A stretch of 64,000 bases of DNA. Source: Punica granatum (taxonomy: Eukaryota > Streptophyta > Magnoliopsida > Myrtales > Lythraceae). Of this stretch, positions 1-48,626 are shown one piece after another. The first letter of the stretch is position 1. Each line of letters begins with the position of its first letter. The position numbers and the translations under genes were made by a program. Below the pieces are notes generated by a model that was not told the origin of the DNA, ran no database searches, and saw only the letters and a list, made by a program, of their open reading frames with translations. The DNA lies in contig NC_045128.1 of NCBI RefSeq assembly GCF_007655135.1, forward strand, positions 7,068,001 to 7,132,000, read 5' to 3'.

Positions 1-1094
1 AGTAAAGGGGGCTATTTTTCTAAAAAAAAAAATCGTAATTTATCATTTGCAAGAGTAACATCTGACGTTGGGATCAAATATTAGAGTAAAAATTTTAGGA
101 GGGCGCATCCTTTGAAAACTTATGTTGCAAGCGCTAACAAGCCGTGATTTGGAAACCTCAATGAAAAAGCAAAAAAAAAAAAATACAAAAAATACAAAAA
201 AGAATCTTTGGATTAAGTATCTCTTTAATTGGAAGTTCATGTGTATAATCACGGGGTACTGAAAAGTGCACCCTTCATGTACCATATAAACTGAGAAGAG
301 GTGTATAGGCCCATGCGGGCAAATACATAATCGGAAGGAAACAAAGCAATGGAATCCCACAATATATAGCGCAAACGATGTCCTAGCATTTCATCCTAGC
401 TTTTCGTCCCTTCAAACTGAATCCATGGGCTATTTATTGCGGAGCATGGAGCCGAAGAAGACAGGACTAACAATTACATACATTCCAGTATCGTTGGAGA
501 TACCCGAGAGACGAGACCGAATGATCTGGAGTTGAACTAAGCGCTTGTAGTTCAACTGAACATGCCAAGGAGTATACATGGCTATGAAGTATGAAATGAG
601 CACTTTCATATATATGCTCATGGAAGTGGGCCGATCAGCATGCGCGAGAGCTGAATCAATAATCCACCATCAACATTTGGGGCTTCCCTCCATAGAGAGG
701 AAGCAGCTCATGCTCTATTGGGCCATGACTGTCTCATCTAATCTGAAATCACAAATCTGTTGGGCCATCTGCCTCCATGTTCGACCCGGTTACGATCGTA
801 GTGAATTGAAATTTAAGTTACATCATGATCATTTTGATATGAACATGGTAAATTTGCTTCGAAACCCGATATTACTGTGTCCCTCGTGCTGACAATCTGC
901 GTTTAAGTCCATTTCACGGTTCCGACTTACCTGCCCAAGCATACTCGGTGTTGTGGAACGGAGAATTTGACCTAGCTTCTTCTCTGTGCAGACACGATGT
1001 TCCGTATTGAAAGCCCAATTGTTCTTCAAAGACTCCCTCGTCATCCCGTGGCTACGGCACACCAAAAGGTCCAAACCCTCCCCCCTTCCCCCCC

Positions 1095-1125
<31 letters not shown>

Positions 1126-1170
1126 AATTCCTGGTGGCCTACTTGGTTAAGGCTTGAATCAGTTGCCTTG
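1..1170. other. AT-rich intergenic sequence with C-run and CA repeat
   Basis: No gene is recognised here; the short open frames lack domains, splice structure or codon bias. The only marked structure is a run of about 24 C (1088-1111) followed by a (CA)n tract to about 1126, a simple repeat whose length may be unreliable in an assembly. Confidence 0.6.
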
Positions 1171-1354
1171 GGTTTGGACGGTTTCCCTCTTATATGGAGA
1201 ATAATGAGGGCGGGTATTGGAGGTAATCTCACATGAAAAAATTGTGAGAAAATCCATAGGTTTATAAGAGACAATGGTCTAGCAACTCATTGGCTTAAAC
1301 TTTTGATTGCGGATGGGTCCGAGTCCAAAGTAGGTCTGTGGATTTATCCTAATA
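1171..1354 (+). repeat. TRIM 1 left LTR
   Basis: Direct-repeat partner of 1536-1720. Both contain the blocks TATATGGAGAAT and GATTGCGGATGGGTC. The 5' end has lost the canonical TG start (GGTTTGGACGG here against TGTTAAGACGG in the partner). Confidence 0.85.
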
Positions 1355-1535
1355 AGTGGTATCAAAGCCCAAGATAACGATCCTGGCGAAGTGCACACGC
1401 TATGCGTGGGAACTCATACCATACCAAGGTCCAAGTGTGAAACTCGTTACTAGTGAATGGCCTAATAATTAGTATCCGAGTTCGGAAGTAGAAGCTCGGC
1501 TCGAAATCCTCCACATAGTCGAGAAGGAGGAGAAT

Positions 1536-1720
1536 TGTTAAGACGGTTTCTCTCCTATATGGAGAATGATGAGGGTGGATATTGGAGGTAATTCTACATG
1601 AAAAAATTAAGAGGAAATCCATAAGTTTATAAGAGGAAATGGTCTAACAACTCATTGACTTAACCTTTTGGATTGCGGATGGGTCTGAGTTCAAAGTAGG
1701 CCTGTGGATTTATCATAACA
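1536..1720 (+). repeat. TRIM 1 right LTR
   Basis: Begins TGTTAAGACGG and ends CATAACA. It follows the polypurine tract and is flanked by CCTTT, close to the left flank CCTTG. Confidence 0.85.
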
Positions 1721-2387
1721 CCTTTATATCTCACTTTCGAGTCCCTCTCCATGCATCAGCAATTCTTCAAATGTAAATTAGGTTTTGCCTCTAGTCACGT
1801 CTTGATGTACGTGGGAGTGGTATTCGGCCTGGTAGGTATACTCATTATAACAGAAGCTATGCCATAGTTATCTGTTTCGTTGCTTATTCTGAGAAAGGCG
1901 AGTAAGATGTTAATGACAAGCGCGGGGTGTACTGTCCGCCCGCTTTCATGTAATAATGTATAACTCCAATTCATTCACACTAAATTAAGAAACAAGTTCC
2001 GAACATATATAATTAACATCGCTCTCTGGCCACGTAAGGAAGTACGTCCTCTGTCGCAAGTGGCCAACGTGAAAATCCATTGCATTTATGGCTTCATGAG
2101 ACTGTATTTTAATTATATATTTAATTTCAGTTTAAGTTTCTCTTATCTTAAAAACTTTTGCCTAAATGCCACACCTGACGTGATGTAGAAATCGGAACCA
2201 ATCGAGACAGACCCCAAAGTATCTTCAAGTTGGAGTCATCCATGCATCCATAAAAATCAATCTGACAATTAGATAAAAGTTGTGTGAAACCGCCCATAGG
2301 ATAGGTAATATGCACTTTGACTGTTAAGTAGTTTGGCCGTGTGCTCTATATATTTTCCCATTAGGAAAGAGACTCAAGGACTCTATA
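1721..2387. other. Intergenic sequence between the two TRIMs
   Basis: AT-rich; I see no gene, RNA gene or further repeat boundary in it. Confidence 0.5.
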
Positions 2388-2527
2388 CGTTGAGAGTAAA
2401 AGATTTCACACCAAAAAATTAGGAAGAATCTAATGGGTTTATAAGAGATTAGATATCACAACTTATCAGCTCAAGCTTTTGAGTTGAAAATGAGCACAAT
2501 CGCTTATAGGTCCAATGATTATTTTCA
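2388..2527 (+). repeat. TRIM 2 left LTR
   Basis: Pairs with 2857-2997. It ends in CA directly before the TGGTATCAGAG primer-binding site. The expected TG start has become CG. Confidence 0.88.
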
Positions 2528-2856
2528 TGGTATCAGAGCGGATAATGCTTCCGCGCGCATGTGTGTGGGTTCACATCACGCCATTTGAAATGTCACTTTG
2601 TCGATAGGCAGCTGAAGTGCGCCCATGTTTCGCCCAAGTGTGAAACTCGTGGTCTCTTTGAAATCTAAGTACGGATAGAAACCCGGCTCATCTTAATTCG
2701 GTCCAAGCGTGGCCTCATTGTCAATTGTCATCCCCCTTCCTCCAGAGTACGAAAGTCCAGTCCCGGCTCATAGTTAATTGTTGAGGATGGGTTGTTCTAG
2801 TTCACGTGGCACGTGTAGTTGACTGTCAAAACCATACATTGTCACGTGAAGGTGGA

Positions 2857-2997
2857 TGTTGAAATTAAAAAATTCCACACAGAAAAGTTAAGAAGAATCT
2901 AATAGGTTTATAAGAGATTTGGTACCACAACCTATCAGCTCGAACTTTTGAGTTGGAGATGAGCCCAATCGCTTATAGGTCTAATGGATATTTTACA
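2857..2997 (+). repeat. TRIM 2 right LTR
   Basis: TG...CA bounded repeat, followed immediately by the CTATA target duplication. Confidence 0.88.
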
Positions 2998-4931
2998 CTA
3001 TATAAAAAATATAAAGTTAAATAACGGAATATAGATAATTTCACTTGCGAGAATCAAACCTGAAACAATTTCATTCCTCAAGAGCATTTGTCTCTGCATT
3101 ACGTTTCCTTTCTCTTATTCTCTCTCTTATTCTGCCTTCCGCATGAAGTCTGGTTAGGAGGAAAATGGCTTCTTTGATCCAATTTTGTAGATGAAGCCGC
3201 ATATACATGTTTTGGTTGTCCGATGTCATAAATGCAAGTTGATGCCATGGCGCATGCCACCCCTGCAATATATGGATCAGCACTTATTTGTACATACGAT
3301 CTACGAAAGCCGGAGTATGACATTTCCGACTAGTTATGAACTAATAATAGTTTGGCTCCAGGTTGGAGGACTTTGTACGCTTTTACGTAAGGGTTAAGTT
3401 AATCATTTATCCCATTAAGCCAATATTGGTTGCGTTTAAGTCCATATAATGAAACACCTCGTTTCATGTCTATCTTCTCTTTCTTATTCTTTTTATGTAA
3501 AAGTTTCATGTTCATCTTATCAAAAATGTTGACTCCACGTTATGATTTTCAGAATACCGAATCCTCTCCCACGTAAACTCTTCAATTTTCAACTTGATGA
3601 CATGTGTACATACTACATAGTTTTCTCAGGTTAATTATTATTGGAAAAGCCCACAACTGCCGTCTCATCATAAAAGAACTCGATGAGCCACCAAAGACTG
3701 TTTTATAAATGGAGAACAAAAATTGCAATCATGAGAGCTTTATCCATAGAATTCATTGAGGTTTTAGATACAAGTAATGCTCATCGAAAAGGGAAAAAAA
3801 GAAAAAAAAGAAAAGAACTCAGTGAGCCACTACAGATTTAATTAATTTCAGAAAGGTATGTGAACTTTGGCCACTATTTCAAATATAGCCTAAAAATAAA
3901 AGTCGTTTCAAAAATGCAATTGTTGTCAATTAATTATATTGAACACGACCAATCGGTACTGATAGTGGATTGCTTTGCACTCAAATTCTTATATATTACA
4001 TGCTAGCGGCGGTGATGCTGGCCGTGATGTTGCCATCACGTAACATAGGTATAATAGTTGCGCTTTCTTATTTTAATTTCATCACTTTTTAAAAAAAAAA
4101 TTCACAAATTTTAGAATATTAATTGTATAATTAGAATTACTATCTCATACATGAGAAGCAAGCATTATGGGGCCGAAACGCAAGATTCTAATAATATCTG
4201 GACATGTCTGAAATAACTAATAAGTTTTGGAAGGTAAATGTCTAAATCTAAAGCAACTTTTTGATAGCAAAATACATTGTCCTTAGTCCTATCCTGGAAA
4301 TGAAAAGTTGACACAATCCGTTACAATAATTAATAGACATATACGATTTCACCCAAAAGAAAAATATGTATACATTATTGGGAAAATTTTCTGATGATGT
4401 TATCTTACCACTTAATATGAGAAAATACTAATAAATTCGCAACTAAATGGATAAATGAGATTGTTATAAACACATAGACGGTGGATCATGAATTCCCATA
4501 ATATTGAAAGAATCTGATCGATTCTTCTTTTACCTTACATTATTATAAGGAAGGACTATTAACTATTTTCTCATATTACTAACAATAGTTTAAGATTCAC
4601 ATGATCATAATCATAATCTTTTTAGTAATTCTACCTCACCATATGACACATATACGAGCAATCTTATATATGTACTTAGTTTTAATTTGAATATGTATAA
4701 ATGAAAGCAAAGAATTGTCGAAGAAGTAAATACTTGTTGTAATTTGATGTTGATAGATACAATTGGAAAATTGGCATTACTTCTCCTCAATGGTCCCAAA
4801 CACTAAAGATTGTTCATCCATAATTATCCACCCCCTTTTTTTTTCAAATTGTTCTATTTAGCATTTTTTTTCTGATTACAAAGGAAACCGTCATGTACTA
4901 GGGGCTGAATTGTAATCAATTTAGAATTTTT
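2998..4931. other. AT-rich intergenic sequence
   Basis: No gene, RNA gene or bounded repeat seen. Open frames are short and of low complexity. Confidence 0.5.
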
Positions 4932-5140
4932 TGAAGGAACCGAGAGGGAGAGTGCATAAAACAATTATGCAAAATATTCTGTGATGATTCATTCATCGGG
5001 GAAATCCCTTATAAGGACAAAATACATCCAAGAGAAATAAGAAAGTCCTAGAAAAACTAAGTAACAAATGAAGTCTAGCCTAAAGTAAGAATACTTTACA
5101 TAATATCAAGATACAGTAAGAAAAATGTACAACTGTAATA
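4932..5140 (-). repeat. Copia element 1, 3' LTR
   Basis: 209 bp, matching 9823-10031 with no indels and about 11 substitutions. On the coding strand it follows the polypurine tract and ends CCTTCA. Confidence 0.95.
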
Positions 5141-5148
5141 TCCCCCTC

Positions 5149-5150
<2 letters not shown>
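5141..5150 (-). other. Polypurine tract of Copia element 1
   Basis: On the minus strand this reads GAGAGGGGGA directly upstream of the 3' LTR, the usual site of plus-strand priming. It overlaps the end of the polyprotein frame. Confidence 0.85.
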
Positions 5151-6636
<1,486 letters not shown>

Positions 6637-33433: not shown

Positions 33434-34168
33434 AGTAACTACAATTAAAAGGGCCTATCGCGATATTTTTTGGGACTTTAGGGGACCCATACAAGCGTCG
33501 CCAAAAGTCTCGCGACGTTTACGATAGGCGTCGCCAAAGGCCAATCTATGCCGACCCATAATAGTAGTCGTCACAACCCCTAGTTAGCAGAGGACCACCT
33601 AGGGCGATGTTTGTATGGGTAGCCCTAGACTTGGCTATGACGACGTTTGGTAAATGCCGGGCATGGACTACCTATGCTAACGTCGGCCTCAAGAAACCTA
33701 CGCTGATGTTTAGTAGGCGTTGCCTAACATCAACATGGGACGACCCATGTTTGTGTTGATCTAGAATCACCTTAATGGAGCAACCCGATGCTCAAATGGT
33801 GGGTTTTTTGTCAGCAAGCTGTCCGCCTGTTAATGTGCTTAAAAAAAAAAGAAGCCATCGCCAGTCCACCGTCAACAAGCTGATCGCTTGTTGACCGTGC
33901 CTGGCCATGATTTTTGTTAGCCTATGAACAAGCTAATAGCTTGCTATTAGGTTCAACCGAAAAAAAAAAAAAGGGCTTGCTATTAGGATACTCTCGAGAT
34001 TTATTTTAATCAAATCTAAATAATTAATACAAGTATGCATGTAAACTCAAGAATTACATCACATAATTGTGTCAAAGATTACTATTCCACCATAATTACC
34101 AAATCTAATGTTACAATTCCCGACCAAACTAGGCCAATGTCACAAGATCAATAACACCGGAAATATTA

Positions 34169-34378
34169 TCAATAACAATCCCAACAACTTGAAAATTCGT
34201 CATACTCATACAACATGGCCTTATATATGCCCCCTTGTATGATAAGCTTGAGCAACTTCGCCTCTACTGCATTCTTTCGAACCGCAACCTCCTCTTGCAT
34301 TTGTCTTTGTAGAGCTACTTGTTCTTCTCTAAATTGTTCTTCTCGACGTGCTAGAGCTTTCTCTAAATTGTCCTCCAA
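34169..34378 (-). pseudogene. Coiled-coil C-terminal segment of a CACTA-encoded protein
   Basis: A 69-codon frame with a strongly helical, charged start (ARREEQFREEQVALQRQMQE) and then a short tail. Such Glu/Gln-rich coiled coils are common at the end of CACTA TnpA-like proteins; the assignment rests on composition and position inside the element. Confidence 0.45.
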
Positions 34379-34948
34379 TAGAACAACGTTCGATCAATTA
34401 AGCAAAGGAACAATTCAAGGTGAAACCTCAAAATTCAATGCATAGGAAGAGAGAGGGGAAAAAGAGAGAATCGAAAGGGTGTTCAAGCAGACGGATTCAA
34501 CAAACATGAAATTTTTCTCCAATTACCACCACCAACGTTTGTAATCAACCAAACAAGACCTAATTTTATTGCACTGAAACACTAGCAAGACTTTCTTTGT
34601 GCAAACCTCGCAAAATCAACTCTTCATGTATTGCAGAAAATAAAGCCCGTGAGTTATTACATAATTCTCATAGGTAGCAGCCTTTGATTTCACAATTTTA
34701 TCCACTTCATTCTAACTCTAAGCGAACAAATCGATCAAATTTAATTTTCAAATGATAAACACTGAATCGATAGTTTCCCTCAAACATTAGGTTGGAACCC
34801 ATTGACCAAAATTAGACACCAAATGCGACATTTTGGTTCATTGAGAAAATGAGGCAAATTAATGGCAAGAACATGGCTTGCTCAAATGAATTTTGGTCCC
34901 CTATAGAATCCGTCAAGAAAAGATTGAGCATAGGCATAGCGGCCTTAC

Positions 34949-35220
34949 CCGGGTTGCCTTCTCATCTTGAAGCTTTCACTAGCGAACCCGATCATGACTT
35001 GGCCCTTAACATTAGCATCCTTCACGTACATCTCAAAGTAGTAAATCAGCCGCTTGATGGGAGCAGGCCTGTTCGCTTACACAGCCCCGACATCGTGGCC
35101 GCGTAGGTTCTCGCTGGTGTACTTGACGAAGAGCTTGTCGGTGGAGATGACGAGAAAGCCATCGGAGCTGTTGATCGTGTTCAGCTCAGTGGAAGCTTCC
35201 TCCTCCTCGGCCTCGACCAT
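34949..35220 (-). pseudogene. Captured RanBPM-like SPRY-domain exon fragment
   Basis: On the minus strand, frame from 35220: ELNTINSSDGFLVISTDKLF, VKYTSENLRGHDVGAV, a TAA, then ANRPAPIKRLIYYFEMYVKD and GQVMIGFASESFKMRRQPG. This is the start of the SPRY domain of plant Ran-binding protein M homologues, which share the GHDVG, KRL-YYFE-YVK and FKMRRQPG phrases. After MRRQPG the DNA reads GG|GTAAGG, a good splice donor at the point where the host protein continues WEANS, and intron-like T-rich sequence follows. One in-frame stop (TAA) interrupts the exon. GC content is clearly higher than in the surrounding element. Probably captured as genomic DNA from a host gene. Not expected to make a functional protein. 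Confidence 0.85.
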
Positions 35221-35857
35221 AGTGGAGGAAGCCACAGCGGAGCAGAGCCTCACCTGGTCAATTTCTCTATGAGGAATTGATAGAGGGGACAGTGAGAGAG
35301 CCAGATGAAGAAAAGAACATTTTTAATTTGACTTTTAAAATTTGGCTGGGCGGCAGTGAGAAAGGGGGAACTTTCTCGTCTGGCATTTTAAATTTTTTAA
35401 AAGAACTCAAGACTTTGGGCGACGTTTTTATGGGTCGCCCAAGACTTGTTAACAAGCTGCCAATAAGCTATTAGATTAGTGACTGTTGAAAACTTTGATC
35501 AATTCGCACATTATCAACTAGGTGGCAACAAACTTACAGACATTAAACTTGGTGAAACGAATCCCTCTCACCCAATGGCAACTACTTCCCCACCCAACGT
35601 AAGACTATATATGTTTGCTATATATATGATTTCATTTGACCAATGTCTACTACTAATAGTACAACAAATGAATTTGAGTTTAATTTATAACATACATAAA
35701 TAAAGTGAGAGAGGGAAAGTATAATCAAGTATGGGCGCTCCAACCGAAAAAAAAAAGCACATAAAGTTACCATTGCATATCATCTTTTAAACGAGCTTCT
35801 AATCTTTTAAGCGAGATTTATATACAAATCTCTTGAGGAATTGATCTGCATCCAATC

Positions 35858-36151
35858 TTATCTAAACATGGCTACTCCACATACTTGTACAAACCTCATG
35901 AGATTTGTATACAAACCTCTCAAGGAATTAATGTCAACCCAATCACATCTAAACATGGTTACACAAAAATCACCGTAATAGTCCAAATCGATCATACTTG
36001 CATAACATCTGTAATATGGTTTGCCATCGGCAAGAACCATCACATGACAATTTTGAGCTTTACGAGTCCTATCCTGGCTTATGGTATGGAAGTGGAAATC
36101 ATTTATAATCAAAGCACCAAAAGTAGATATCGCATCATTCGGTTCTTGCAC
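35858..36151 (-). pseudogene. CACTA-associated DUF4216 fragment
   Basis: Open for 97 codons: FGALIINDFHFHTISQDRTR, KAQNCHVMV, then DLDYYGDFCVTMFRCDWVDI. The YYG...L/MF-CDWVD block is the DUF4216 hallmark found after the TNP2 transposase in plant CACTA elements. It joins directly to the TNP2 remnant upstream, so a large internal deletion removed the rest of TNP2 and what lay between. Confidence 0.85.
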
Positions 36152-36189
36152 AAGAGTAATTACTTCACAATTTACTTAGTCGGCAGCCG

Positions 36190-36620
36190 AACGACCTTTG
36201 GCACTCCATCCCAAGAGGTTAGCATATGCTAAGAAATTGTTATTAGTCCAAAAGAGGGAAGCTCGTAAAGTGAAACTCGTAGACATAGAGGCATCAAAAG
36301 CTTCAACTCCAACCTGTAATTGTTTCACCCCTCAATCAACAGCTGTAAGTACATGTCAAAATCATTACCCGGTCTTGATCTCTCGCCATGGGTAACCATT
36401 GATAATATGATAGACGACGATTTGATGCAAACCCATGGTATTAGGTTGTAGGGAATGAGAATAACCGGTCACATACTATGTTTGGTGCTCATAGTCTTGA
36501 ACGGATTGAATCCATCACTCGCTAAACCCAACTGAATATTTCGAAGATTAGTGGCAAAGTTCGAATACCTTTCATCGAAAGCTTTCCAAGCTCTGATGAT
36601 CTTCTTGGCTTGGTAATGGG
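36190..36620 (-). pseudogene. TNP2 transposase fragment
   Basis: Minus-strand reading AWKAFDERYSNFATNLRNIQ, LGLASDGFNPFKTMSTKHSM, a TAG where relatives have Trp, then PVILIPYNL, matching the start of the TNP2-like transposase core. Further on it reads LRASLLWTNNNFLAYANLLG WSAKGR, another TNP2 block. Intervening sequence is short and broken. Catalytic integrity is lost. Confidence 0.8.
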
Positions 36621-36899
36621 AGGTCGGGAGGTTTACTCCGCTTGGATATTAATCATTTAGCTAGTCCAGTAGAATAGTGAAAGATTTTGTGGACCACTTA
36701 TGAAGTGATTTAATAAGGAAGAAACGGAGGAGTAAATGAAATGGTCGAGCAAAACATCATAGTCATTTAATGGAGTTTTTGTTATAGATGTTGTACCTTG
36801 AGTCGTCTTAGTAGATTGAATTTCACGATTGTTATCACCTACAACTCCATGTTCAAGCTCGGTATTATTGTTCATTCCAAGGGCATCCGTAATGAGTTC

Positions 36900-37202
36900 T
36901 CATACATGCAATTGATCGTGTGCAACTGCTTCAGTCATTAGTGAACTTCTTGAAGGCTGCCTTGTTTGAATGAACAGCCTCTCAATTGATTCTTCATGGA
37001 AAACCCAATGCTTGTTATCTTGTAAAAAGTTGTGGTCAAGAATATGATTATATGCAATATCCGATGGATGGATAGACACTTTGTTGCATCGACGACACGA
37101 ACAATAAATCTTCCCATTAAGTGTAGAGTTCTCAACCTTGAATGCAATAAATCTATGGAGATGGTCATAAACGGCCATGTAAACCTTGGATGATCGATCC
37201 AA
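36900..37202 (-). pseudogene. Transposase-associated domain of the CACTA element
   Basis: Starts MDRSSKVYMAVYDHLHRFIA and contains IYCSCRRCNK, then a HILDHNFLQDNKHWVFHEE tail. The MDRSW start, the C-x-C-xx-C cluster and the terminal W-x-x-H-G/E correspond to the Transpos_assoc domain that precedes TNP2 in plant CACTA transposases. The open frame runs 100 codons and ends before the TNP2 remnant. Confidence 0.8.
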
Positions 37203-37867
37203 CTTTTATCCATATAATTATTTATGGAAACAATATATAAACATGTGAAACATTTGATTGCAAATTTAATATGCTTTTTGCATACACTGCAAGTATAAGC
37301 ATATACACTCTTCTGACGAGTTTTCAAAGTGGGAGAGAATGAGAGACAATGCTTATTGGCAATTTCATCATTAATCTATCAATTGCGTGCTTAAATGAAT
37401 CGAATTCCTGACCGTTCAGTTCTAGCTCGACATATAATGAATTATCGTCTTTCAACAAGCTGATATATTGTTGATAGTAGGCTCGACAAAAAAATTGGTT
37501 TTGGACGACCCACAAAAACGTCATCATAAATATGAAGGGACGACGTTACGGCATGGGTTGGCAAAGGGTTAACTTGTTGCAACTTTTCCACAAACATCGG
37601 CATCAGAGGACCTTTTGCTGACTCTTTTTCCCCAACTTTATGGTATGGATCGTTTAAAGCGTGTTTTAGGTGATGTTTATATATGGTCGTCCCAAGCCCA
37701 TTTTTTCGTGACTATTGTGGCTGACGTTTATATGGATTGTCTAAAGCACGTTTCTTGCAACGTTTACTTATGGGTCGCCCTAGACTCCACCACATTAAAC
37801 TTTTAGCAACGTTTATTTATGGATCGCCCTAAAAAAGTCTCCCTAAGCCGTTTTTATTGTAGTGAGT

Positions 37868-39836: not shown

Positions 39837-39918
39837 ATATAACATTTCTCCCCCGATCTCTGTGCAACTGCAACCCCCTAAGAGTTAGGAAAGGAGCCCT
39901 AAAAAAAGAGAAAAAAGA

Positions 39919-40506
39919 ATGGAGCCACTGAATCCCTTTTCTCTCCATCCTTTCCTTCTCTTCTTCATCATCATTATGATCTCCATCACCCCTCCTAGAA
40001 CTCTTGCAACTCATCAAGAAGGAGCTGGCCCAAAGAACAAGACCGGGTCGATGACCGAGCAACTCCTCGCCCATGTGGTCTCCGAGTCGCTGCAATTCCT
40101 CTACGCGCACAACATCGTGAGGCAGTCCAAGTCCGAGCCACCGCTCACGTGGGACTACAATCTTGAGAAGTACGCCCGGTGGTGGGCGGGTCAGAGGAGA
40201 CACGACTGTGAGCTCATCCACTCGTTTCCTGAAGGCGAGTTCACCCTTGGGGAGAACATTTTCTGGGGTGGCGGGTCGGCTTGGACGCCTGGGGACGCGG
40301 TGAAACTGTGGGTGAGTGAGGAGAAGTACTATGACTACAACAGCAACACGTGCGAGGAGGGTCAGGTGTGTGGGCATTACACACAGATCGTGTGGAAGGA
40401 CACGAGGAAGCTCGGGTGCGCCCGGGTAGTGTGCGATAACAGGGACGTCTTCATTACCTGTAACTATTATCCGCCGGGGAACTATGAAGGCGACCGTCCA
40501 TATTAA
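39919..40506 (+). CDS. PR-1-like secreted CAP-superfamily protein
   Basis: Intronless gene for a 195-residue pathogenesis-related 1 type protein. PR-1 proteins are secreted to the apoplast and bind sterols; many are induced by pathogens. Residues 1-30 form a signal peptide (MEPLNPFSLHPFLLFFIIIM and following, likely cut after TLA). The CAP domain runs from about 50 to the end. Conserved cavity residues are visible: His64, His101, Glu112 in GENIFWG and His153 in GHYTQIVW. Six cysteines in the mature part (97, 145, 151, 167, 172, 181) match the three disulfides of the family. The C-terminus is CNYYPPGNYEGDRPY, which fits the CNYxPxGNxxxxPY consensus of PR-1 proteins that release an 11-residue CAPE signalling peptide (185-195 here). 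High local GC marks the coding region. A long frame on the other strand is a shadow. Confidence 0.95.
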   Translation: MEPLNPFSLHPFLLFFIIIMISITPPRTLATHQEGAGPKNKTGSMTEQLLAHVVSESLQFLYAHNIVRQSKSEPPLTWDYNLEKYARWWAGQRRHDCELIHSFPEGEFTLGENIFWGGGSAWTPGDAVKLWVSEEKYYDYNSNTCEEGQVCGHYTQIVWKDTRKLGCARVVCDNRDVFITCNYYPPGNYEGDRPY

Positions 40507-41680: not shown

Positions 41681-43465
41681 ATGTCCGGATCTCGCAAACA
41701 CATAATAGTCTTCGCGTTCCCATTCGCAAGCCACCCGGCCCCGCTCCTGGCCCTCGTGAGGCGGATATCTGCCTCAGCACCCACTGCAGTGTTCTCATTC
41801 TTCAGCACGGAGAAATCCAATGCTGAGAACTTCCCCAAGGACAACCCTTTGGGGTACGAGAGCATAAAGGCATGCAGCGTCGATGATGGCCTTCCGCCTG
41901 GGTTCATGCCCTCGGGGAACCCGGTTGAGCCGGTCCAGTTGTTCCTGAAGGCTGTGCCCTGTAACTTCTATAAGGCTGTCAAGGCAGCCGAAGAGGCGGT
42001 TGGAATCAAGGTAAGCTGCCTGCTGACAGATGCGTTTTTTGGGTTCGGGGCAGATATGGCCCGTGAAATGGGGGTCCCATGGGTCCCAGTGTGGTTCTCA
42101 GGGGATCGACCATTACTCGCCCATATAAACACGGATCTCATCCGGAAAACTTTTGGATCTGGAGGTGAGCAGCAGAAGTTAATTTTGGCAGTTCGAATGA
42201 GTCATTATATACCCGAGATCAGTGATTAGTGCTGGTTAACATAATTTCGGATGCTTACTTATTACTGTCACATGCGTGCATGAGGATCATCAATATGGTG
42301 TGGTTTGCAGAAATCTATAGCTCATTTTACATGTCGGGCGGGATTCGTTTTTGGGTTTCAAACGAGGCCTATAAGCCAATATAGTTGCTTTCAATCGTAA
42401 TACTTCAAATGCAATCTAAAGATATATACAACATAAATGGTTACTATAAGCAATAAATAATTCGTACATTCAATTCGAATTTCTATTTTGATAAAAAAAA
42501 AATTTCCCTTTTCTGATCAATTTTTGATATCCTTACCAAGATGTCCTTATGAAATAGAATCTGTGGAAGCAATGAATTGTGTATGTATGTTTCTTGCAGA
42601 TTTCGAAGGCAAGAACCTTGAATTTATCCCAGGCTTCGAATCAGTTCGTGCAATGGACCTGCCACAAGATATCATTGAACCGAATCCAAACTCCGAGTTC
42701 TCCGTCATGATCGATAAAATGGCTGCAACTCTCTCGCAGGCGACTGCAATCGCCATCAACTCCGTTGAGGAGTTGGACCCTCTCATAGTGAAGCAACTCC
42801 GCTCTCATCTTCAGAAGGTCCTAAGCATTGGTCCCATCACCCCATCGTGCCCAATGACGCCGTTCCCCGACAGCTATGGGTGTATCCCATGGCTGGACGA
42901 GCAGAAGCCAGCCTCAGTCGTGTATATTAGCTTCGGGAGTGTGATAACTCCGCCACCCCATGAGCTAACTGCGCTCTCAGAAGCCTTGGAGGAAATCGGC
43001 GTCCCGTTCCTGTGGTCGTTCCGGGGCAATGCAGAAGAGAAACTCCCTCAGGATTTTGTGAGGAGGACTAGGGAGAGCTCAAAGTCGAAGATTGTGTCTT
43101 GGGCACCGCAGCTCGATGTCCTGAGGCACAAGGCGGTCGCAGCATTCCTGACGCAATGTGGTTGGAACTCTCTGCTGGAGAGTTTCATCGGTGGGGTACC
43201 GACGATCATGAGGCCTTTCTTCGGGGATCAACAGCTAAATAGATTGTCCATTGAAACCTTATGGCGTGCAGGGGTCGGCCTTGAGAGAGGCGTGATCACT
43301 AAAACCGGGACCATTGCTGCGCTAAAGAGGGTTTTGTTCACTGAGGACGGGGTGCAAATGAGGCAACGAGCCAGTGAGTTGAACGGACTTGTCATGAGGG
43401 CCGTCGAGACCAGTGGTAGCTCTACCAAGAATTTCGAGTCTCTGGTTGACATTGTAACAAAATAA
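41681..43465 (+). CDS. UGT78-type flavonoid/anthocyanidin 3-O-glycosyltransferase
   Basis: Family-1 UDP-glycosyltransferase; relatives transfer sugar from UDP-glucose to the 3-OH of anthocyanidins or flavonols in the cytosol. Exons 41681-42164 and 42600-43465 (435-bp phase-1 intron) give 449 residues, the normal length. The catalytic His18 (FPFASHPAPLL) and its partner Asp117 (LLTDAFF) are present. The donor-binding PSPG box spans 329-372 and ends FFGDQ, Gln372 being the glucose-type last residue. At its position 19 this protein has Gln347 (FLTQCGWNS) instead of the nearly invariant His that contacts the UDP phosphate. The acceptor/donor region WFSGD replaces the WTAG seen in grape VvGT1. The rest of the frame is intact and codon use is normal, so this is either a diverged enzyme or one with reduced activity. 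The substrate is inferred from family phrases (SFGSVITPPP, RPFFGDQ). The start was chosen at MSGSRKHIIVFAFPF; upstream in-frame sequence lacks conservation. Confidence 0.9.
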
Positions 43466-47060: not shown

Positions 47061-48626
47061 CTAATATATCCCCTCGTGACGCATGACGGAAGTTGTGTCC
47101 CAAGACATTGACGGTCCGGCTCTCATCTCAAAGTCAATAGACCCCCAGAGAAAGCTGTCCTTGGAACCGTTGGATTCCTTGAAGTAGTCAGATGCCTGAT
47201 CCTCCGGTGACATAATTCCTCCGGTTTTGCTAACTAACGTGTTCTGATCAAGTTCTGTTATGTTGTTATGGATGTTCGAGTATTGGTCGATGTTTGGCTC
47301 GATCACACCACACCTATAGTTCATAGGCATCGACCCTCCCGAGCACGACGATATACTGTTTGGGGAACCCAAGGCGAGTGATCTAGTGTCGTACAGTGCA
47401 TCGGAGTATGCTCCTGATTCAACCTGGGAGGACTCGAGATTTTCTATCTTCTCATAAATGACCCTCAGAGAATCATGTTGAGCGGCCGGCTGGATAGATG
47501 TCATGGCGGGGAAGTAGAATTCTCCATTCGGTTCATCCTCGGAATGAGAACCGCGCACGTTGTCACATTCGGGGCCAGGGGTGTGCAGATCAAGGGTTTG
47601 GCCTAGGTTTTGTTGTGGTAGCAAGTGAAGGCTTTGGATTATCCTTTCTTGGAGTAAAGGATGCAGCTTAGGCCAGAGGGCAGGGTTACTGTAGAAATAA
47701 TTAGAGAGAGGGCTCTGAAGGCTTTGAAGCTGCAAATGGAGTTGGAGCCTTTCGAAGGCAGAATGGCTCAATTCGGATGGAGATGACGAGCTGTCTTGAG
47801 GCCCGTCGGCCCCTACATTCGTGCCGAGACGTCCTCTTGCATTACTTTGCTTTCGCCTCCCGAGCAACTTCTTCTTCAGCCGGGTGTTCCAGTAGTTCTT
47901 GATGTCGTTATCAGTTCTTCCGGGCAACTGTGCCGCAATTATTGACCACCTGTGTAACAAAAAAGATTTAATATCATTACGCATTGCAACTTCTACTGAG
48001 GAATATCAATTAAAACTTACATTGCGTAGATTTGCACTCTCAGAAGGTTCGAAATTCTACTACCACAAAGTGAGGTACTACGTCACCTCTAAGATTGATC
48101 AATGCGTTCGAAAGTCATTTGGTATTTTATCAAATTTCTCTGATCCGAATCTATATGTATATCGTTTATTAAAATCGACTTCTCGCATTACAAATTAATA
48201 AGATGTTATGAGAGATTCAGATTAATTTCGGACCTGCTGCCGATGCTGATGTAGAGGCTGCAAATGATGTTGTCTTCTTCCTCAGTAAAGCCACCATGCT
48301 TGATGTTAGGTCTCAGGTAATTCAGCCATCTCAGCCTGCAACTCTTCCCGCATCTCTTGAGCCCTACACCGCACATCATCGATCAACACGGCCACATACC
48401 ACATAACTCAGTCATCTCTGTGATATCAATTTTTTTTTTCTTAATAAAAAGAACACGTGAACACAGAGAGATCGATTGAGGGTCGCCTACCGATTTTATG
48501 AGGAAGAGCAATCCAATTGCCACCGGTTCCGTATTTCTCAATGTAAGCCTTGAGCTTGGCATCCTCTTCGGGGGACCATGGTCCCTTCTTCACGTTGTCC
48601 TTGTCACAGCACGGGGCTCTTCCCAT
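47061..48626 (-). CDS. MYB36: R2R3-MYB transcription factor, MYB36-like
   Basis: DNA-binding regulator. Arabidopsis MYB36 switches on Casparian-strip genes in the root endodermis. Exons on the minus strand: 48626-48491, 48363-48234 and 47949-47061, joined in phases 1 and 2 to give 384 residues. Two introns at these positions are standard for R2R3-MYBs. The N-terminus [20 protein letters not shown] starts R2; R2 runs through [20 protein letters not shown] and R3 through [20 protein letters not shown] to [20 protein letters not shown], with the spaced tryptophans in place. The subgroup-14 tail [18 protein letters not shown] followed by [16 protein letters not shown] is the feature that points to MYB36 rather than RAX proteins. 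The orthology and role are inferred. The C-terminal tail is acidic and serine-rich and probably activates transcription. Confidence 0.92.

Follow-up and report, generated by a model that had tools for sequence, protein, structure and literature searches.

How did the beginning of a RanBPM gene come to lie within a transposon of pomegranate (Punica granatum), and does it still have a role there? The question is raised by a stretch of 64,000 nucleotides (C2:7068001-7132000, here called the window), for which a preliminary description had placed a captured RanBPM exon at 34949..35220 inside a CACTA element. Searches were carried out in the 320-Mb assembly of 474 contigs to which the window belongs. 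The fragment is almost certainly cargo of a Pack-CACTA element, in which pieces of two host genes, RanBPM and ATG8, are carried together.

The element and its two host-gene pieces

The element occupies 33437..37864 (4428 bp), is non-autonomous, has relatives elsewhere in the genome and possesses features of the CACTA superfamily, namely terminal inverted repeats, a 3-bp target-site duplication, subterminal repeats and transposase remnants. Its left tip, AACTACAA at 33437, shows one mismatch to CACTACAA, the left tip of related elements on C3 and C8, at C4:34.9 Mb and at three loci without cargo (L050, L051 and L052); its right tip, TTGTAGTG, is exact and ends at 37864, and substitutions are present in the right tips of the C8, L050 and L051 elements. 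The duplicated target site AGT was found at 33434..33436 and 37865..37867, and the bounded element that had been described, with AGT on both sides, was thus recovered. Exact duplications also flank the elements on C3 (TGC) and at L051 (TCG); those of C8 (CGT/GGT), C4:34.9 Mb (TGG/GGG) and L052 (AGA/AAA) are one base off, and that of L050 (TTT/TAA) is two bases off.

To the left of the cargo, 33437..34375 contains subterminal repeats and most of a minus-strand open reading frame (34169-34378), for which Pfam gave no match; this region is largely common to L050, L051 and L052. To the right, a stretch of the element's interior containing a repeat of the subterminal type (35262..35455), shared with the cargo copies and in part with the cargo-less relatives, is followed by a segment of transposase remnants on the minus strand (35456..37453). 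These are, in minus-strand order, Transpos_assoc (36990..37166, Pfam E 6.5e-8), Transposase_21 or tnp2 (36185..36316, E 7.1e-9) and DUF4216 (35879..35992, E 5.7e-5), the first two above and the last below the curated cut-off; we take these domains to be marks of CACTA transposases. The coding capacity for transposase has been lost, since only short, disrupted frames with partial domains are left. The RanBPM fragment lies on the same strand as the remnants, as had been observed previously.

A translation of the minus strand of 34949-35253, with X at the stop, matched plant RanBPM proteins (120 of 256 matches were listed), which bears out the earlier identification. Among the listed matches containing the region once, the best was P0002, a RanBPM homolog of Punica granatum (83% over 99% of the query, E 1.9e-44); a Hibiscus protein in which the region is present twice headed the list (E 7.4e-55, 74% identical over 79%). 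For the fragment, Pfam yielded no match; those obtained with PDB, to RanBP9/10, were weak (E about 6e-4).

The parent gene, for which a search had been recommended together with a comparison of exon-intron borders, was located on C4 of the same assembly, where exon 1 of P0002 matches at 100%. Parent exon 1 (L008:4995-5392) ends with CCCGG|GTAAGG, and exon 2 starts ATAG|TTGGGAAGCCAAC (T TGG GAA GCC AAC), giving G-WEAN in the protein across the border. The window copy has retained this border: its donor, GG|GTAAGG, has the GT at 34947..34948 (minus strand), and the host protein continues with WEAN at the point that had been predicted. The homology extends beyond the donor: it opens inside exon 1, at parent L008 5082, and persists through about 478 nt of intron 1 to 5870, the matching part of the window being 34486-35259. 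Thus, window 34486-35261 is contiguous genomic RanBPM DNA on the minus strand, consisting of about 313 nt of exon 1 (34949..35261) and 463 nt of the 5' portion of intron 1 (34486..34948; parent L008 5393-5870). Capture of genomic DNA including an intron by the CACTA element, as had been suggested, is confirmed by the parent gene, and so is the single in-frame stop, a TAA at 35079-35077 of the minus strand (35077..35079), where the parent codon is CAG; it is the product of two transitions at one symmetric CHG site. The extent given originally was right for the start of the exon part at 34949, but the exon part runs to 35261 and the captured DNA begins at 34376. The second captured gene piece, the larger cargo and the absence of the start codon and of the first 85 nt or so of exon 1 had escaped notice. 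This absence goes back to a deletion of about 270 bp with its junction at 35261..35262, by which the start of exon 1, the 5' UTR and the border between cargo and element were removed; the copies on C3, C8 and C7 still possess this DNA.

Two further features of the parent locus may be mentioned. In intron 1, at L008 about 5443-5469, the motif of the exon/intron border is repeated, and this repetition is missing from the transposon copies. About 6 kb downstream of the gene, the C-terminal exon of RanBPM occurs once more (G000:C4:7048650-7048934, 93% identical), apparently as a partial tandem duplication.

The second piece, at 34376..34488 on the minus strand, comprises about 17 nt from the end of exon 1 and about 97 nt of intron 1 of an ATG8 gene. 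When all candidates of a genome search were scored, it was matched at five places, namely in the elements on C2, C3, C4:34.9 Mb and C8 and at C7:27014215-27014328, to which the copies are 84-88% identical (window, 85%). The latter is the sole match outside CACTA elements, and the 3.1 kb around it were found to contain neither CACTA tips nor any further match to the elements of the window, C3 and C8. The minus strand of this source locus encodes ATG8, an exon MAKSSFKLEHPL being followed by ERRQAEAARIREKYPDRIPV (Pfam ATG8 4.9e-4, below cut-off) and by a further exon (Pfam ATG8 4.5e-18); the identity rests on Pfam and PDB. Transfer in the opposite direction, from the element to the ATG8 gene, was rejected because the piece holds conserved ATG8 coding sequence.

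Both host pieces straddle an exon-1/intron-1 border and are inserted in the same sense; their sources on C4 and C7 are unlinked, and in the element they abut directly. At this junction a microhomology of 4 bp, GCTG, is present; random junctions of the two loci share at least 4 nt with a frequency of 0.020, and the motif, having been picked by eye, could be due to chance. The border between ATG8 and element shares GAACA, which is suggestive only. None of the junctions is exact to the base, since the copies have diverged from the parent exon by K2P distances of 0.13-0.19.

Sibling copies, cargo-less relatives and a probable single capture

With window 34900-35300 as query, and with five of five candidates scored, five places were obtained: the window itself, the parent gene and copies on C3, C7 and C8; two additional rows represented short stretches next to the copies on C7 and C3. 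A query with parent L008:4500-6100 gave the same five places, although this is not independent proof of completeness, since its first 230 bases or so are a dispersed repeat and only 40 of 2362 candidates were therefore scored. The repeat (L008 4500-4720), which recurs dozens of times in the genome, immediately precedes the parent gene and did not take part in the capture.

The search for other copies with the same cargo, which had been proposed at the outset, thus produced three, on C3, C8 and C7, besides one at C4:34.9 Mb from which most of the cargo has been deleted; the element evidently remained mobile after the capture. The four cargo elements (C2, C3, C8 and C7) occupy different insertion sites and are 80-85% identical in DNA to the query region or the parent. 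Those on C3 (2712 bp, target-site duplication TGC) and C8 (2731 bp, CGT/GGT) are complete; of the C7 copy, the right end is present and the left end is missing. In the fifth copy (L022, C4:34946795), the cargo is reduced to the ATG8 piece and some 60 bp of RanBPM intron. The start region and 5' UTR or flank are retained on C3, C8 and C7, on C3 and C7 with some 170 nt preceding the ATG, and among the four main copies the one in the window alone has lost the start codon, as part of a deletion of some 270 bp.

The breakpoint on the intron side, parent L008 5870/5871, is the same in all three copies that reach it (C2, C3 and C8; C7 is truncated before), and the opposite breakpoint lies at about parent L008 4823-4826 in both C3 and C7. 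The shared breakpoints indicate one capture followed by a burst of amplification. Nine sites of the exon and 23 of the intron distinguish all four copies from the parent, and the other differences form a nearly star-like pattern, which fits the same course of events. For some 55 bp at the right border of the cargo in the C3, C8 and C7 copies, a source was searched for and not found. That an old RanBPM pseudogene, broken and diverged as the fragment indeed is, merely became surrounded by a CACTA element by chance can practically be dismissed, because the same fragment with the same breakpoints resides in the C2, C3, C8 and C7 elements at different sites.

The three cargo-less relatives are collinear with the window element on both flanks of the captured patch and differ in a middle part of about 0.9 kb. 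On the left, L050, L051 and L052 align from window 33438, 33529 and 33507, respectively, each up to about 34342-34360; on the right, the alignment resumes at 35275/35304, takes in the transposase segment, where it is interrupted by internal gaps, and ends at about 37864. Since they carry this segment (35456-37453) collinearly, it may be read as ancestral to the family and lost from the C3, C8, C7 and L022 copies, which are without it. Its insertion into the window copy as a separate event was ruled out on the same grounds, the three relatives having the segment in collinear position and with internal gaps of their own.

The middles of the relatives (L050 1064-1979; L051, reverse, 1046-1988; L052, reverse, 1078-2037) are of two unrelated kinds. 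Comparison of 24 middle segments yielded seven of type A and three of type B; the rest, the RanBPM copies among them, were unclassified, hybrid or truncated. A source or parent gene for type B outside the family was sought in the genome and not found at the sensitivity used, and a host origin is claimed here for the RanBPM and ATG8 pieces, not for type A or B. It is a tentative and rather doubtful thought that the family has an interval of internal exchange at about window 34376-35275, in which at least three unrelated middles of about 0.9-1.1 kb (RanBPM with ATG8, type A and type B) stand between halves that are otherwise collinear. If types A and B should also be host DNA, breaks at one fragile site would have been repaired repeatedly with transcribed 5' ends of genes as templates, and capture by Pack-CACTA elements would be a recurrent, site-focused gap repair rather than a fusion of neighbouring insertions.

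Decay of the copies and predicted genes

Exon 1 is damaged in all four copies. The window copy has the TAA and no start codon, the C3 copy a TGA, the C7 copy a gap of one base, and in the C8 copy the ATG start and the splice donor are lost, although a frame of 87 codons is kept there. The donor is preserved in the window and on C7 and lost on C3 and C8. Between copies, K2P distances are 0.17-0.21 for the exon and 0.09-0.14 for the intron. Transitions against the parent, summed over four copies, amounted in exon 1 to 59/248 at CG, 42/243 at CHG, 30/413 at CHH and 22/577 at A/T sites, and in the intron to 27/90, 26/101, 43/433 and 53/880, respectively; since the copies are not independent and the parent served as reference, these counts are indicative only. 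Their concentration at CG and CHG sites suggests that the copies have been methylated, and the higher divergence of the exon fits its richness in such sites.

Ratios of dN/dS (NG86) were 0.47-1.1 when copies were compared with one another and 0.34-0.64 when they were compared with the parent; they are not cleanly neutral, transition bias lowers them, and weak constraint is neither proved nor excluded by them. The exon part of the window copy (34949-35261) lies at a distance of 0.131 from the parent and of 0.174-0.199 from its siblings, whereas the intron part (34486-34948) is nearer to the siblings (0.093-0.131) than to the parent (0.216). This conflict does not agree with a simple tree and is perhaps a result of gene conversion. 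Altogether, the four copies would appear to be decaying non-coding passengers and not working genes, and a function of the fragment is unlikely.

Two gene models for Punica bear on this point. P0153 (85 aa), from another annotation on a contig of 344390 bases, joins a tnp2 remnant to the RanBPM fragment and is fully encoded by the window element: its first exon corresponds to 36369..36436 (minus strand, donor GG|GTAATG) and its second to 35077..35266 (minus strand, acceptor CATAG|A), ending at the TAA. P0147 (87 aa), on a contig of 260575 bases, agrees with the translation of the C8 copy outside alignment gaps. The insertion in the window thus appears to be present also in a second pomegranate assembly, and both copies were called genes by prediction. 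P0153 could be taken for a real chimeric gene, in which a transposase exon would be spliced to the RanBPM exon; it is wholly encoded by the element with a plausible donor and acceptor, and splicing of CACTA cargo exons into transcripts is on record (PMC1947982). We regard this as highly improbable, however: P0153 is a prediction, it terminates at a premature TAA inside the SPRY region, and the modelling of the C8 copy as a protein of 87 residues suggests mis-annotation of Pack elements. Both models are probably spurious, and the capture accounts for them.

Hardly more credit can be given to the notion that the fragment is kept for regulation, with antisense or small RNAs from the elements restraining the RanBPM gene. 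In its favour, four elements are 80-85% identical in DNA to the parent or the query region, and the C3 and C8 copies have 18 and 12 21-mers, respectively, in common with parent exon 1, which they match exactly over runs of 30 and 31 nt. The window and C7 copies, in contrast, share only 5 and 6, and the decay pattern is seen in all four copies. The siRNA pressure on the parent gene which the preliminary description had envisaged is therefore doubtful for the window copy, with its five shared 21-mers and a longest exact run of 25 nt.

Probable mechanism of capture and known elements

Taken as a whole, the following course of events is probable, including gap repair with template switching. A break would have occurred in the internal region of a CACTA element in which remnants of the transposase were still present. 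During repair, a stretch of RanBPM would have been copied, comprising 5' UTR or flank, exon 1 and the 5' half kilobase of intron 1, and also a short stretch of ATG8 with the end of exon 1 and the start of intron 1; template switches at short shared sequences could have joined the two. The patch would replace about 0.9 kb of other DNA, as seen in the cargo-less relatives. The chimeric element would then have been mobilised in trans, giving rise to the copies in the window, on C3, C8 and C7 and to the mostly cargo-deleted one at C4:34.9 Mb. Subsequently, the 2-kb transposase segment would have been lost from all of these except the window copy, and the RanBPM start codon from the window copy, and the copies presumably decay now as methylated, non-coding passengers.

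A different model has been published for Pack-CACTA elements of Arabidopsis (PMC8903248 and PMC13317346), according to which two related elements insert in tandem on both sides of a host segment, lose their inner ends and move as one hybrid. The internal position of the cargo, with a left and a right element half on either side, would agree with it. Yet the cargo in pomegranate stems from two unlinked loci, on C4 and C7, which abut with no element DNA between them, and the halves match collinear relatives in which only the middle is exchanged, so that a second event and matching deletions would be needed; moreover, the authors of a study on Chenopodium cite Rubin and Levy for the mechanism of capture (PMC8978399). 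Tandem insertion is thus an unlikely explanation here. Gap repair with serial template switching would account in one step for pieces from C4 and C7 abutting inside otherwise collinear halves.

The capture is of a known kind, Pack-CACTA, and more intricate than first noted. With the Pack-CACTA (Pack-TYPE) elements of Arabidopsis and maize, the pomegranate element shares its non-autonomous nature, CACTA ends, a 3-bp target-site duplication, an internal host-gene fragment and the occurrence in several copies. They, too, have been reported to combine cargo of different loci (PMC8903248), as has Tgm-Express1. The differences are the host, the transposase remnants kept in the window copy, and the direct abutment of the cargo pieces, in an interval that differs between subfamilies. 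Tgm-Express1 from the wp allele of soybean is likewise a CACTA element with several unrelated host gene fragments, exons as well as introns (PMC1947982); it has five fragments and demonstrated chimeric splicing, whereas the pomegranate element has two, is diverged and multi-copy, and its chimeric transcript is a predicted one. CACTA-like elements of Chenopodium, a member of a different plant family, also contain captured fragments, and capture-prone regions are noted by their authors; the consulted passages of that account (PMC8978399) trace no parent gene or exon-intron border, which was possible for pomegranate. For animal Pack-TIRs, template switching with short microhomology has been proposed in gap-filling and FoSTeST models (PMC8277862); the parts of that article consulted are concerned with animal elements and include no CACTA case, in contrast to the plant CACTA element described here.

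Within the open-licence PMC literature, no report joining CACTA and RanBPM was found. Judged by title and beginning of abstract, articles in the same collection on CACTA or other transposable elements of pomegranate did not describe the family in the window, and those retrieved for CACTA with captured ATG8 dealt with other topics; none of the listed matches there on Pack or CACTA elements named pomegranate. The case is well resolved, with both parents, the exon-intron borders, sibling copies and cargo-less relatives available in one assembly. The direct junction of RanBPM and ATG8 at a short shared sequence has a bearing on how CACTA elements acquire host DNA and leans towards template switching.

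Other open frames are present in the window to the right of the element: on the plus strand, a CAP-domain (PR-1-like) frame at 39889-40506, about 2 kb away, and a UDP-glycosyltransferase exon at 42461-43465, and on the minus strand an exon with a Myb domain at 47061-48005.
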